Shown piece by piece: positions 22,091 through 36,587 of a stretch of 45,756 bases of DNA. The stretch lies in the IMG/VR virus record IMGVR_UViG_3300036864_000136, positions 1 through 45,756 of that record. One strand, 5' to 3'. Position 1 is the stretch's first letter. Every line of letters begins with the position of its first letter. The translations under genes were made by a program, and so were the position numbers. The DNA is from a virus. Under the pieces are notes generated by a model, which was not told the origin of the DNA, made no database searches, and worked only from the letters and a program-made list of their open reading frames with translations.

Positions 22091-22118
22091 GCCAGATCCC
22101 TTCTTTCACCGCAGGGTA

Positions 22119-22142
22119 TTAGGTTTTGGCCACTAAACCTAA
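22119..22142 (-). promoter_or_regulatory. Stem-loop with GTGGCC loop upstream of ATPase gene
   Basis: On the minus strand TTAGGTTT and AAACCTAA pair over 8 bp around the loop AGTGGCCA. It lies between the terminator at 22148 and the start of the ATPase gene. The same GTGGCC apex occurs in other stems in the window (25318, 25364, 38579). Confidence 0.45.
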
Positions 22143-22147
22143 AAGAA

Positions 22148-22178
22148 AAGCCCCAGGACCGTGAAGGCGCTGGGGCTT
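22148..22178 (-). terminator. Rho-independent terminator
   Basis: AAGCCCCAG at 22148-22156 pairs with CTGGGGCTT at 22170-22178. On the minus strand the hairpin is followed by TTTCTTTT. It ends the transcript of the small genes at 22190-22648. Confidence 0.8.
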
Positions 22179-22189
22179 AACTTTAAGAC

Positions 22190-22357
22190 TCAGCAGTGAA
22201 TGACGATAGTCGGTTCAATGTCAGGGTCTTCGCTCGCTTGAATTGTCACCTGCGTGACATCCAAAAGAAAACCATTGACGTAAACCTTTACCGGCACGGT
22301 CCCAGGTGCGCCGCGATCAGCTTGCAGAAATTGCTGACCGAATTCTAGCTGGTCCAT
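22190..22357 (-). CDS. Small hypothetical protein (55 aa)
   Basis: Begins MDQLEFGQQFLQAD and has a beta-strand pattern TVPVKVYVNGFLLDVTQVTIQ. The ATG overlaps the TAA of the gene before (TAAATGG). It is followed closely by the terminator. No family was recognised. Confidence 0.65.
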   Translation of the reverse strand: MDQLEFGQQFLQADRGAPGTVPVKVYVNGFLLDVTQVTIQASEDPDIEPTIVIHC

Positions 22358-26379: not shown

Positions 26380-26769
26380 TCAAATAATTGCACCACCTTC
26401 ATTTTCCCAGTCACAGATTTGAGCCAACGCTGTAGCCTTACGACGCCTTTTCTTTGTTGCGCCGTTAATGTTCTTAACCCTTTGCCCCTTGCTTCGCCTT
26501 TGATTCTTCTTTGCGAGAGCAAGTTGGCGACTGGTCCATTCTTCTGCCCTACGGCTCGGCTTTTCACGAGTCAGATGGAAGATTGACCATCCGCAATCGC
26601 CAAAACATGGCATGGCATAAACTTCTACACCTGAAAACGCTGACCTTTCGGCAGCAATTTTCGTTGCGTCGGTTACGCTGTAGGCTCTTTTGCCGCAGCG
26701 AGAATTTCGCTCTTCTTGAGTTGTTGCTAGCTTCTTCAAGTCTTCGAAGTTAATCTTTGGCCTTGACAA
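26380..26769 (-). CDS. Zinc-finger protein of common actinophage type
   Basis: About 129 residues from TTG 26769, inside the end of the HNH gene. RCGKRAYSVTDATKIAAER then VEVYAMPCFGDCGWSIFHLT has the layout C-x-KR-x-Y ... A ... Y-x-C-x-x-C-G-x-H-L-T that recurs in small actinophage zinc proteins. A very basic region follows (KKNQRRSKGQRVKN). Likely nucleic-acid binding; the start is uncertain. Confidence 0.6.
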   Translation of the reverse strand: MSRPKINFEDLKKLATTQEERNSRCGKRAYSVTDATKIAAERSAFSGVEVYAMPCFGDCGWSIFHLTREKPSRRAEEWTSRQLALAKKNQRRSKGQRVKNINGATKKRRRKATALAQICDWENEGGAII

Positions 26770-27334
26770 TTTTACGCCCCTGCCACCATTCTTCGTTAAG
26801 TCCAATGTCAATTGGTCCAGCTTCACGGGGTGAATGTTCGTCGTACAAGTCACCCCACACATAACCTTCGTCGTTCAAAGTGTGCCACCTATTGTGACAG
26901 GAGTGGCAGACTCTATGAACGTTACCTTTTTCGTTGTTGAGCGTGTTCTTGTCGGGTCCATGGTGGCGGGCCTGCTGCAAGTTAGCCAGACATCCCACGA
27001 TCGGGAACTTTCCGCCACCACAATTCTTCTTCGACGCCCACTCGCAAAGTGCTGTCTCGTCAAGTGGGTACATCTTCGCTGCTCTTTTACGACCCGTACT
27101 CTGCTGGTCTTTTAGGGCTGAGTCGTCTTTGTAGGTGGTGAAACCTTCCATAGGGTCACTATCGTCAAAGTCAGCAGAATCAGAAGAATCAACTCCACTG
27201 CTGCTGGAAGGAATATCACTCCTATCAGAACTGACGGGGTCAACAATATCATCACTATCAGTAGTAGAGTTTTCACACTGCTCCAAAGTTCTGCACTCGT
27301 GATTTAGGCCTAGGCGGTGCGCTACACATTTCAT
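26750..27334 (-). CDS. HNH endonuclease
   Basis: A 194-residue protein. Residues 25-65 are a Ser/Asp-rich linker. The HNH core is CLANLQQARHHGPDKNT then VHRVCHSCHNRWH, with the catalytic His, Asn region and two zinc CxxC/CxxH pairs. It could be a homing or packaging-associated nuclease. Here it sits in the early region far from the terminase. The ATG has no ribosome site, but TAATCT seven bases upstream could act as a -10 of a leaderless message. Confidence 0.75.
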   Translation of the reverse strand: MKCVAHRLGLNHECRTLEQCENSTTDSDDIVDPVSSDRSDIPSSSSGVDSSDSADFDDSDPMEGFTTYKDDSALKDQQSTGRKRAAKMYPLDETALCEWASKKNCGGGKFPIVGCLANLQQARHHGPDKNTLNNEKGNVHRVCHSCHNRWHTLNDEGYVWGDLYDEHSPREAGPIDIGLNEEWWQGRKIVKAKD

Positions 27335-27759: not shown

Positions 27760-27959
27760 GGATGACACCCCATACAAACAAGGTAGTAGGTTTTAGTTTC
27801 AGCGTGGTACCAAAATATCAGCCGGGTTATGTCAAAGTAGTACCGACAGAAAGGACAATCGCCGCCCTGTCGTTCAAAAAGAAACTGCTTAAACCTTCTT
27901 CTTTTACGCGAGTTCCAATCCCCCGGCTTTCGCCTAGACAACGTAAGTCCCTGGTTCAC
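27756..27959 (-). CDS. Small four-Cys zinc protein
   Basis: A 67-residue basic protein from GTG 27959. RRKPGDWNSRKRRRF is followed by CPFC and, 22 residues later, CMGC, resembling a truncated HNH-type zinc ribbon without the catalytic His-Asn-His. It overlaps the GntR-like gene by 26 bases. Confidence 0.6.
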   Translation of the reverse strand: MNQGLTLSRRKPGDWNSRKRRRFKQFLFERQGGDCPFCRYYFDITRLIFWYHAETKTYYLVCMGCHP

Positions 27960-28185
27960 CTTCAGCTCTATTGTTGATAACTTTCACTCGGCCGTTCTTA
28001 ACGAGAATTGCCCGAGCCATGCTAACTATTTCTGTGCTAGCGCCGAGAATTGCTCTAAGAGAATCCGTGTTAGGAAGCTTCTCCCCTGGCGCTACTTTGC
28101 CTGACTCGATCAGATTAATCATGTAGACATAAACTGCGCTTATGCGTCGGTGTCTTTGGTTTTCAAGGTCCTGTTTATTAGCCAC
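27934..28185 (-). CDS. GntR-type winged-helix regulator (DNA-binding domain only)
   Basis: An 83-residue protein from GTG 28185 behind AGGGGTG. RHRRISAVYVYMINLIESGKVAPGEKLPNTDSLRAILGAS has the GntR N-terminal pattern (helix, PGE-x-LP, recognition helix), followed by the wing VKVINNRAEGEPGTYVV. No effector domain is present. It is preceded by an unusually long 440-base structured leader, which suggests control at RNA level. Confidence 0.75.
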   Translation of the reverse strand: MANKQDLENQRHRRISAVYVYMINLIESGKVAPGEKLPNTDSLRAILGASTEIVSMARAILVKNGRVKVINNRAEGEPGTYVV

Positions 28186-28200
28186 TAGATTTCACCCCTA

Positions 28201-28642
28201 AATAAAATTAGCGGCAGTAATTCGGGAGTCTGCGACACATCGCCCCGAACTTAATAACCTAGAAGACCTTCGCTCGTCGAGGTTGAATCCCCACGAAAAT
28301 CTTTTAAGTTTTCAGTTCGAGCGGGGCTTGGGAGAAGTCGGGGTGGCCGCCCAAACTTCTTTCCATGTCTCGCACTTGCCGAACTACTACCGCTAACTTA
28401 GGTTTTCCCCTATTCTCTCCCAGGATCCAAAGGTGAAAGAAAAACCCTGGGAAAGATGTAGGGGGAAGCAACTGTATGGGAAACTCACTACCCGTTCAGC
28501 GCTCACCACGAGTATAACCCACCAGCGACGTGAGGTAACCCCCCACAAGCCAGTAGGACCGTAAGAAACCAGTCAAACCGTATGTGGAAGAGATCACTCT
28601 GGCGAGTTGTGCCACCTTGCGTGTCGGCCACGGATACGCTAG
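28201..28642 (-). ncRNA. Candidate structured RNA / long leader without genes
   Basis: No gene fits this roughly 440-base gap. It holds several hairpins. One pairs CCCCTA/TAGGGG and TCCCAGG/CCTGGGA (plus-strand 28408-28474). AGAAG/CTTCT around GGG/CCC lies at 28333-28360. A long-range CCCCGAACT pairs with AGTTCG-agc-GGGG (28243-28326). GCGTATC/GACACGC around CGTGGCC lies at 28620-28641. It lies directly before the GntR-like gene on the minus strand. It could be a non-coding RNA, a regulatory leader or a replication origin. The strand is inferred from its neighbours. Confidence 0.5.
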
Positions 28643-28657
28643 GTGACTGAATTTAGG

Positions 28658-28969
28658 TCAGTTAGAAGTTTTGCGCCACTCCTCCATTGTTTCACACATT
28701 TTGTCAGAGAGTTCCCATTCCTTTGGAGACGAGAACATGGATTTGAAATCTCGCAGGTAGCTGATCCATGTCTTGTTGGTTTCGAGAGACTTCCAACTTA
28801 CTCGGAAATAGCTCTCATCGTAGGAAATGATTTCAGCTTTTTGATGACGCTTCCATGATGCATTGCCTGACCAAACTTCACCAGGCTTAGGGACTTCTTT
28901 TAGGGTCAGCTCCCTCATTTCTTGCTGCCAGTCGTCGAAGATTTTCTGGTGCTCTTTTGAAAGTGGCAC
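28658..28969 (-). CDS. Hypothetical protein
   Basis: A 103-residue protein starting MPLSKEHQKIFDDWQQEM. A beta-rich middle (GEVWSGNASWKRHQKAEIISYDESYFRVSW) is followed by charged helices. It lies between the SNF2 operon and the structured gap, as the last gene of its transcript. No family was recognised. Confidence 0.65.
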   Translation of the reverse strand: MPLSKEHQKIFDDWQQEMRELTLKEVPKPGEVWSGNASWKRHQKAEIISYDESYFRVSWKSLETNKTWISYLRDFKSMFSSPKEWELSDKMCETMEEWRKTSN

Positions 28970-29212: not shown

Positions 29213-29368
29213 TCACCTGTTGTTCGGAAAGCCCTTAGGGCTTTTAATGATGTGACACTTTCGCTTATGCCAAATAACCAGCGACTTGTACTTAGTTCCA
29301 ATCTGGATTTCTCCCCATGGAGTTGGAATGTAGATCTTAGTTCCAACCTTTGCGTAAAGCTTCTTCAT
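29213..29368 (-). CDS. Small basic protein (51 aa)
   Basis: ATG 29368 overlaps the stop of the SNF2 helicase gene by one base. The sequence MKKLYAKVGTKIYIPTPWGEIQIG has an SH3-like small beta-barrel pattern and is net basic. Likely co-translated with the helicase; its role is unknown. Confidence 0.65.
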   Translation of the reverse strand: MKKLYAKVGTKIYIPTPWGEIQIGTKYKSLVIWHKRKCHIIKSPKGFPNNR

Positions 29369-31437
29369 TAACCCTCCAGGAACTTCCTCATAGCCTCAGC
29401 CAAGTCGACATCGGCTTGGAAACCATCGAGCATGTTCTTCTTCTGCTCCTGAATCGCATCGATCAATTCAGTTGCTGTGCCTTCACAATGGAGAATGTGC
29501 ACGATGGATTCGTACTCCGAGTCGATGCGTCGGAGCCGGTCAATTGTTTGCTCTTCCTTGCCGGGATTCCATTCCCGCTCGATGCAAAGAAGTTGCTGAG
29601 CACCATTCAAGTTGAGGCCAACTTGTGCAGTCTGGTACTGACAAATCAGCACATCATACTGATGCTCGCCAACCTTTGTGTGGTTGGTATTGAAGTCATC
29701 GATGTAGCCACGGCGAACATGATCCGGCACGTCACCGGTGATTTTAGCGACCCTGAGGTTGTTCATCTCGCACCGACGCTCAAGTTCTGCGATAACACTC
29801 TTGAACATCGAGAAGACAACAATTCGGTCGCCATCTTCTACAGCCTCATTGACAATTTGTTCTGACTCGTCCATCATGATGGACTCACCAATTGGCGGAG
29901 TCCCCGGAGGCGGAAAGATGACGCGAGGATCAATGCACGGTCCTGGAAGTCCCTGCTCATCGAGACATTCTGGATCGTGCCAACATCCCTTGATCTGAAT
30001 TCCATCCGGCCAACTTGCAGCCTGACGCATTCGCGTGTACCAGGCGAGAACTGCTTGAGTTGTCATTTGCTCCGTGTCAGAGAAAGCAAGCTTCGCTTTG
30101 TCGCGGAGTTCTGTGATGAACTTCGTCTGACGTGGGTACTTCTCCGGATCGAGCTCAAGCCAGTGATGTTTGATTTCCTGGGGCGGCATAACAACTCCAG
30201 CACTTTCACGTGTGCGAGCCGTGTACTTCATGTCTAGCTTCTTGAGGAGCCTATCAGATCCGCCAGACCCAAAGGTGTAGACGTACTTGTTTGTCGCGTA
30301 GTCGTACTCTTTTGTGCAGTAATCATCGAGGAAGTTCTTTTCTGACGGGAACATTTCTCGATCGATCATATTGAGAGGAGGCCAAATCTCAGCTGGCTTA
30401 TTGAGAATTGGTGTACCCGTTGCTACGTAGAAATTCTTGACCGAGCAGAAATCGCTGAACTGTTCGGCTCGAAACTCGCAGGCTGAACAAATGGTGTCGA
30501 AGCCACGAACATCGAAAGTCTGATGGCCACAACTTGGGCAACGGTTCTCGGCAAAGACAAGTTCACGAACCTTCTGAGTGGTGACAGACTTGGCACCCTT
30601 TAGAACATGACCCTCGTCACAGAAGATGGCGTCGAAACAACAATCCTTGAGCTTCTCATGGATTGAATTGTCCTTGCGCCAGACTTCATAGTTGGTGATG
30701 ACGATGGCTTCTGGCATGTGCTTGATAACTTCAAGGAGTTCAACCTTAATTCCCTTGAGAGTTTGATTCAGCACATGCACGAAAGTCGGGTTGGTCCACT
30801 GCTTAAAAGCTCGCTCAAAGTCTGGGAGCACCGATTTTGGCGTGAAGATAAGAACCTTGTTGGCCTTACCTTGAGCACGCAACAAGTCGATGGTCATAAT
30901 CATTTCAAGCGTCTTGCCCAGGCCAGGCTTGTCACCGAGAATTCCCCGCTCGGCTGCAACGAGTCGATGAGCTCCGTCAAGTTGGTGAGGGAGTGCCTTC
31001 TTACCGTTGACACCGATGCGCCAGGGAAATTCCTTAGTTCGTTCATCGAGAAGCTTTTGTTGGGTGAGGTACCTTTCGCGTGAAGCCAGTTCAGCTAGAA
31101 GTCGTAGCCGCTCACGTTCGTAAGCTTCCTTGTTACGAAAGTCGAGTCGGTTGATTTGAGTGTTGCGAGAAATAGCTTCATCAATTGGCCGACGCTCGTG
31201 AAGAAGCACGTCAATCTGACGGCGGAGTTCTGCGATTTGTCCGTTGAGGAGAGCCTGAGAGATTTCGAGAGCGTCATTCTCGTTATCGCGAAGAGTGATG
31301 ACACCTTCTATGTCATCAATTCGTACGTTCAAAAAAGCCAAACGATCGAAGTCTTCGTTCGGCATCAACTTGCTGAGGCGAGCCTCACTCTCGGAGAATT
31401 GTTCTTCGAACGCTGACATGTCGAGTCGTTCGGGCAT
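29368..31437 (-). CDS. SNF2/SF2-type DNA helicase or translocase
   Basis: A 689-residue protein. Motif I is GDKPGLGKTLEM (about residue 172), motif Ia FTPKSVLPDF, motif II DEGH, motif III GTPILN. The second RecA lobe has VVFSMFKSV, ITGDVP and QVGLNLNGAQQL, then a Q-x-x-x-R-x-x-R motif as EEQTIDRLRRI. A zinc knuckle (CPSCGHQ ... CSAC) is inserted in lobe 1, and the first 130 residues are coiled coil. Phage SNF2 proteins are thought to aid replication or recombination. It follows a chain of tiny zinc and HTH genes. Confidence 0.88.
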   Translation of the reverse strand: MPERLDMSAFEEQFSESEARLSKLMPNEDFDRLAFLNVRIDDIEGVITLRDNENDALEISQALLNGQIAELRRQIDVLLHERRPIDEAISRNTQINRLDFRNKEAYERERLRLLAELASRERYLTQQKLLDERTKEFPWRIGVNGKKALPHQLDGAHRLVAAERGILGDKPGLGKTLEMIMTIDLLRAQGKANKVLIFTPKSVLPDFERAFKQWTNPTFVHVLNQTLKGIKVELLEVIKHMPEAIVITNYEVWRKDNSIHEKLKDCCFDAIFCDEGHVLKGAKSVTTQKVRELVFAENRCPSCGHQTFDVRGFDTICSACEFRAEQFSDFCSVKNFYVATGTPILNKPAEIWPPLNMIDREMFPSEKNFLDDYCTKEYDYATNKYVYTFGSGGSDRLLKKLDMKYTARTRESAGVVMPPQEIKHHWLELDPEKYPRQTKFITELRDKAKLAFSDTEQMTTQAVLAWYTRMRQAASWPDGIQIKGCWHDPECLDEQGLPGPCIDPRVIFPPPGTPPIGESIMMDESEQIVNEAVEDGDRIVVFSMFKSVIAELERRCEMNNLRVAKITGDVPDHVRRGYIDDFNTNHTKVGEHQYDVLICQYQTAQVGLNLNGAQQLLCIEREWNPGKEEQTIDRLRRIDSEYESIVHILHCEGTATELIDAIQEQKKNMLDGFQADVDLAEAMRKFLEG

Positions 31438-36310: not shown

Positions 36311-36587
36311 GTCTGAGAGACCAGCTTACCACATCGCCAGAACGTGGGAACCTTTTTTGGAATGCGCTAAAGTCGCAGGTCAGAGGCTTACGATGTGAAA
36401 AGGTCCGGGGTGCCCAGACATACCGACACTCCTTTCAGTCGGTCTGTATGGGCGCACCCAGAAGATTATCATAGGGGCCTAATGTCCTAATTTGCCCTAC
36501 TCTGGTGGCCATCGTCCTCGGGCGTCCGATACGTGTCAACCTGAGGGGTTGGTCCGTTTGGTCCAGTTGAATTGTTTCGAGCAATTG
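36311..36587 (-). promoter_or_regulatory. Gene-free regulatory gap with long hairpin
   Basis: No gene seen. A long hairpin pairs GGGTGC-CC-A-ACA-ACCGAC (36408-36427) with its partner at 36438-36459, with a few bulges and a 10-base loop. On the minus strand TTGACA occurs near 36536 with a weak -10 about 17 bases on, and TAAGCT stands shortly before the winged-helix GTG. Likely promoter and control region of the winged-helix operon. Confidence 0.5.

Follow-up and report, generated by a model that had tools for sequence, protein, structure and literature searches.

Our analysis provides evidence for a conserved RNA fold, read from the minus strand, that is encoded by a stretch of phage DNA lying between an SNF2 helicase gene and an HNH-like gene in a leftward operon. 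The window analysed here is the whole 45,756 nucleotides of IMG/VR virus record IMGVR_UViG_3300036864_000136. We think it probable that the stretch is the gene of a stand-alone structured phage noncoding RNA of this operon, with a putative promoter, a putative 3′ end and a predicted action in trans. A large phage noncoding RNA was among the proposals of an earlier sequence-only reading of the window, and it is supported by a conserved genomic position, a strongly covarying structure, strand-specific G-U pairs and the absence of any Rfam match.

The major head protein of the window phage shares 41-44% identity with its counterparts in Arthrobacter phage Jasmine and its kin, Microbacterium phage Shocker and Cellulosimicrobium phage DS1, and its SNF2 helicase is 28-32% identical to the helicases of the same named phages (the Jasmine group). 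Jasmine is described as a podovirus (PMC5513430). Judging by these protein identities, the window phage is related to the Jasmine-type podoviruses of actinobacteria. PHROG families were matched by its terminase, its portal and its head proteins, and no tRNA or tmRNA genes were found in the window. The features of the region are listed in the table; the gene at 26750-27334 presumably encodes an HNH protein, a name we take from its H/C-rich motif.

Table. Features of the RNA region in the window and positions of the subfamily 2a RNAs
Feature	Position	Strand	Evidence or remark
Entire conserved structured element, from H1 through P3	28190-28650	-	fold, homologues, covariation
H1, 5′ hairpin, apical loop GUGGCC	28611-28649, loop 28626-28631	-	covariation; GUGGYY loop 7/7
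TATACT, candidate -10 element just before P1	28511-28516	-	TAYACT in 8/8 family-1 members
P1 hairpin	28467-28503	-	single-sequence folds
P2 hairpin, UUCCCC...GGGGAA	28405-28467	-	single-sequence folds
P3 arm, outer and inner helices	28197-28402	-	133/133 cells paired, 11/23 pairs changed on both sides
P3 internal loop CAAG / GACUC	28375-28378 / 28226-28230	-	CAAG/NACUC invariant in full family-1 members
P3a apical loop GGCCAC, complementary to H1 loop	28343-28348	-	7/7 full members
P3b side hairpin, contains CCCCGAACT pairing	28243-28327	-	long in window phage, reduced or missing in relatives
Terminator-like U-rich tract following P3, adjoins ribosome-binding site of next gene	28199-28207	-	sequence
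SNF2 helicase gene, used to find relatives	29368-31437	-	protein match
Gene preceding the RNA, 103 aa	28658-28969	-	without Pfam or PHROG match
Gene following the RNA, GntR-type winged helix, 83 aa	27934-28185	-	Pfam GntR PF00392, 29.7 bits, cutoff 27
Conserved HNH-like gene, in relatives on the opposite flank of the RNA	26750-27334	-	without Pfam or PHROG match
Subfamily 2a RNAs	L011:8153-8335, L012:11953-12130, L014:12055-12225, L068:12205-12345

The longest frame-poor gap of the window, defined by the absence of a stop-to-stop frame of at least 75 codons on either strand, spans 28192-28657 (466 nt) between two minus-strand genes (28658-28969 and 27934-28185). The minus strand of 28186-28657 folds at -200.4 kcal/mol (z -7.86) and the plus strand at -168.2 (z -5.30), and for neither strand was any of 100 dinucleotide shuffles as good; the minus-strand core, 28190-28505, reaches z -8.16 by the same kind of shuffle. 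The gene-free, hairpin-dense region described by the sequence-only reading is thus confirmed. Its two-part stem at 28408-28474 corresponds to hairpin P2 (about 28405-28467), and its long-range CCCCGAACT pairing is the closing helix of the side hairpin P3b (about 28243-28327). It had also placed a GntR-like gene behind the region: the identity holds, and the position is corrected in that the RNA reads on the minus strand, with this gene (27934-28185) just after it. Scored against crude mononucleotide shuffles, which inflate z, 73 of 163 gaps in the relatives fell below -4. Structured gaps are therefore not rare in this phage group, and it is conservation and covariation that carry our claim, rather than folding energy.

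Several other gaps were noticed. L016:1724-2329 is a 606-nt gene-free region with a minus-strand z of about -24, and L002:4296-4638 (Cellulosimicrobium phage DS1) and L056:5017-5345 (an IMG/VR relative) are gene-free with z of about -14 on the minus strand, all three values being inflated by mononucleotide shuffling; the latter two could be terminators or further RNAs. The next largest gaps of the window are 36326-36587 (262 nt) and 22106-22357 (252 nt). The second contains, on the minus strand, a GCCCCAG...CTGGGGC hairpin followed by TTTTCTTTT, which is probably a terminator.

Relatives were collected with a SNF2 helicase alignment including four named phages, which gave 77 IMG/VR loci, and with a second scan using the neighbouring HNH-like protein, from which 80 of 148 relatives were kept. 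Single-protein scans of IMG/VR with the helicase or the GntR gene had returned no relatives; the helicase alignment did work. Family 1 comprises eight RNAs, seven of them full members (the window's included) and one partial. The RNA lies just downstream of the helicase gene in L006 and L007 (blastn), in L090 and L091 (the records behind L008 and L009) and in L010, which was accepted by eye and by descriptor; L095, from the HNH-protein scan, scored 99.4 bits with model R1. The partial member, L096, found by the HNH-protein scan as well, has P1, P2, TATACT and a P3-like arm and lacks the CAAG/NACUC internal loop. In L006, L007 and L010 both flanks are present in one locus, with the RNA after the SNF2 helicase gene and before the HNH-like gene, and dinucleotide-shuffle z was -6.69 for L006 and -9.80 for L010. 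The GntR-type gene follows the RNA in the window, not in the relatives. Lack of conservation in close relatives had been named by the sequence-only reading as a finding that would speak against it; conservation was found, and the observation stands.

Blastn of the region against the named phage collection and against plasmids gave no related match, an exact 19-base DNA pattern had no match in IMG/VR, and model R1 hit 0 of 50 records at E<=1. R1 also misses member L010, so its negatives do not establish absence from the named phages Casserole, Shocker, DS1 and ctEqG8; a descriptor scan of parts of these four records likewise gave no hit. Gapped P3 patterns, run on IMG/VR and in one GTDB scan, gave ten matches that were checked (L172-L181), namely three known members, which paired at 12/12 outer and 5/5 inner positions, and seven chance matches, which paired at 3-6 of 12 and 1-3 of 5. 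L170 is the phage of L090, and L171, a further P3 pattern match, lies outside the checked ten and did not fit the regular expression of the check. In bacterial genomes family 1 was not seen with the strict gapped P3 pattern in the one GTDB scan. Rfam 15, which includes GOLLD, ROOL, OLE, riboswitches, introns and tmRNA, gave no match in the window at gathering score; the best of four matches at E<=10 in 28100-28760 had 17.5 bits against a cutoff of 33, and in ten relatives only two tRNAs were matched, both in L107. A tRNA, a tmRNA or a catalogued Rfam RNA is rejected on the absence of matches in the window. In the open-access literature we found no description of this RNA or of such an RNA in this phage group.

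The P3 arm covaries strongly. All 133 pair cells of six aligned sequences are standard, and two-sided changes affect 11 of the 23 pairs, where shuffled alignments gave 3.9 +/- 1.4 (reached by 0 of 500 shuffles); the covariation score is 0.478 against a shuffled 0.219. When the partner was slid by 1-3 columns, 29-54% of cells were paired instead of 100%. This count omits L010, which is one base out of register, and L096, which is without the CAAG/NACUC loop, and leaves out P3a, whose loop length shifts by one between sequences; an earlier five-sequence count with P3a included gave 93.8% paired cells and 10 of 27 pairs changed on both sides. Across all loci of the collection, a descriptor of the CAAG/NACUC loop (at least 4 inner and at least 7 outer pairs) found only family-1 members, six at first and seven with L095. 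A relaxed version, with the window's own copy left out, gave eight hits, namely six family-1 members, L099 and L056; the L056 hit was taken as chance, since each of eight decoys with permuted loops had 0-3 hits. The element thus combines conserved, covarying structure with the lack of a long frame, as expected of structured phage noncoding RNAs in general.

The P3 cells also tell the strand. They comprise 125 Watson-Crick, 8 G-U and 0 A-C pairs, and because the 8 G-U cells would be A-C mismatches on the plus strand, it is the minus strand that carries the RNA. L095 likewise scored 99.4 bits on the sense strand against 28.6 antisense. A DNA-level element (operator palindromes, a packaging or a recombination site) without functional RNA, or mere chance folding, could draw on the GTCACC...GGTGAC inverted repeat contained in H1; such an explanation is highly improbable because G-U pairs occur on just one of the strands, the arms stay paired as their letters change, and the loops are invariant while the stems vary.

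Covariation extends to H1, where 89.1% of cells are paired in six sequences (L010 left out) and 5 of 12 pairs changed on both sides, although one of five measures (further pair types) was not above shuffles. P1 and P2, whose alignment is loose, form hairpins in each of six sequences folded singly. The H1 loop word is GUGGCC in five members, GUGGUC in L006 and GUGGCU in L010. The complementary P3a loop reads GGCCAC in all seven full members and CGCCAC in L096. The H1 word lies 272-283 nt upstream of the P3a loop in six members and 234 nt upstream in L010, and the two loops can form 6-8 bp in 7/7, whereas random loop pairs reach 6 bp in 3.7% of trials. Since both loops hardly vary, we regard this as complementarity with two pairing-preserving changes, not as covariation.

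The boundaries of the RNA may be sketched from sequence signals. The core RNA would start just after TATACT and end at the U-rich tract after P3, giving a length of about 310 nt, or of about 220-250 nt in close relatives. The TATACT word is without a consensus -35 and absent from the calls of a sigma-70 scan, which gave no excess of sites (14 vs 12.7 +/- 3.8). At its place, by eye, four subfamily-2a members have TACACT, TATGCT or TATCCT, and L104 and L105 have TACCCT with TTGACA 15 nt upstream; the variation at this position across relatives fits a -10 element. TATACT as an over-avoided word of the genome was rejected (1 seen, about 1 expected). As H1 lies upstream of this candidate promoter, the two cannot belong to the same short transcript, and a longer form with H1 would come from read-through of the upstream operon. 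The folded RNA would act in trans, and its H1 and P3a loops might kiss, either inside a single molecule or across two.

The main rival, which we consider possible but less likely, is a cis-acting leader or attenuator, the long regulatory leader of the sequence-only reading. P3 with the U-rich tract would end transcription or let it pass, the base of P3 would hide the ribosome-binding site of the next gene, and the GGCCAC loop would have two alternative partners, the start region of that gene and the H1 loop. In its favour, the 3′ strand of P3 runs directly into the U-rich tract, which family-1 members have after P3, and into a Shine-Dalgarno sequence (UUUAGGGG in the window, UUGGAGG in L010). 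Family 1 is without a separate terminator hairpin, and the P3/U-rich end is absent from the list of a terminator scan with a loop limit of 8. Where the next gene begins, 4 of 8 members also carry GUGGCC, the complement of the P3a loop (approximately L006:13436, L007:13110, L095:2740 and L096:4245), and the window carries GUGGCU; GUGGCC is found at 4 of 334 other start regions (337 less three next-gene starts; binomial P 1.4e-6, post hoc), which counts against the stand-alone reading and fits control in cis. L090, L091 and L010, however, are without GUGGCC there. Furthermore, the first gene after the RNA differs between family-1 members (the sole match, L007-L096, covers 19 residues at E 0.003), which makes a cis element tied to one gene unlikely, and in subfamilies 2a and 2b a strong terminator of its own closes the RNA. 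A broad trans regulator pairing to GUGGCC at many phage starts was rejected, as only 4 of 334 other starts carry the word.

A replication origin, also suggested by the sequence-only reading, is unsupported: GC skew falls smoothly here, and its only turns, near 20 kb and 39 kb, coincide with coding-strand switches of the ORF list. A primer or initiator RNA for DNA replication would resemble the RNA-based prophage origins of cluster A mycobacteriophages, and noncoding RNAs of this kind, a few hundred nucleotides long, are reported from actinobacteriophages, where some cluster A prophages replicate with RNA (PMC7157519). Those systems, however, adjoin parABS and are needed for prophage replication, and lytic growth is reported as normal after their deletion (PMC7157519); with no skew turn at the RNA region, we judge this role improbable.

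Diverged structured RNAs occupy the same gap in further relatives. Among the best 14 HNH loci (L092-L105), seven hold family 1 (L096 partially), six hold another structured RNA (L099, L100, L102-L105), and in L101 none was recognised. Subfamily 2a consists of L011 (= L100), L012, L014 (= L102) and L068 (= L103), subfamily 2b of L099, L104 and L105; RNAalifold pairs changed on both sides number 21/52 in 2a and 15/56 in 2b, and at the end of each of these RNAs stands a strong hairpin with a run rich in U behind it. In 2b the internal loop is exact in L099 (CAAG/AACUC), is CAAG/GACUC in L105 (by eye) and is CAGG/AACCC in L104, an A-U to G-C exchange inside the motif. The P3a loop of 2a is the self-complementary GGCGCC in 4/4 members. 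Their position and layout, together with the internal loop in the case of 2b, make both subfamilies probable homologues of family 1. The 2a layout reads GGUCU...GAUAACCGA...AGCCAAGA, then the terminator. L012 and L068 share a near-identical P2 subdomain, GUCGCCACGUUAAUAGUGGGAGACUCUAAGAGAGUCAGAU (approximately L012:11890-11945 and L068:12140-12195), while the rest differs, as if it had been exchanged as a module. L153, matched by a family-2 regular expression, was dropped, as no link to this RNA was seen.

Among known systems, GOLLD and ROOL are large phage or prophage RNAs reported to form cages through kissing loops (PMC12286853). The window RNA is likewise phage-encoded, structured and intercistronic, with conserved complementary loops that could join domains or molecules; in contrast, it has no Rfam match and is shorter (about 310-460 nt). 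GOLLD and ROOL are often encoded near tRNA islands, whereas the window has neither tRNA nor tmRNA. The packaging RNA of phi29 also has two complementary loops able to join molecules, but the window RNA differs in size and layout and is without an Rfam match; to our knowledge, no packaging RNA is associated with the PHROG families to which the terminase, portal and head proteins of the window belong. Cluster A mycobacteriophages D29, L5 and StarStuff are described as expressing a noncoding RNA at the right genome end, highly and after the early promoter (PMC5712189), and three noncoding RNAs, likewise highly expressed, are reported for Rhodococcus phage WC1 (PMC10986025). These too come from frame-poor regions of actinobacteriophages and have unknown functions, and theirs are transcribed. 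The D29, L5 and StarStuff RNA differs in its place at the right genome end, and the comparison was made through blastn of the phage collection, with no related match.

A more far-reaching proposal, which we put forward as speculative and rather unlikely, is that Jasmine-like podoviruses have a new RNA superfamily, retained at a single genomic site with its sequence almost wholly rewritten, whose loops would join molecules into a multimeric RNA particle in lytic growth. Equally tentative is its division into one branch with H1/P1/P2/P3 and GUGGCC::GGCCAC and another with P3, a palindromic GGCGCC loop and a strong terminator. If true, such a particle would join GOLLD and ROOL as a third case. 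Few large structured RNAs are known from phages, and the function of most is unknown. The structure of the one reported here is defined, family 1 has eight members (one partial), and seven diverged relatives are added to them; the phage group also has cultivated isolates. Its two exact loop motifs can be mutated and restored, and a trans-acting RNA, an attenuator and an oligomer all become testable.
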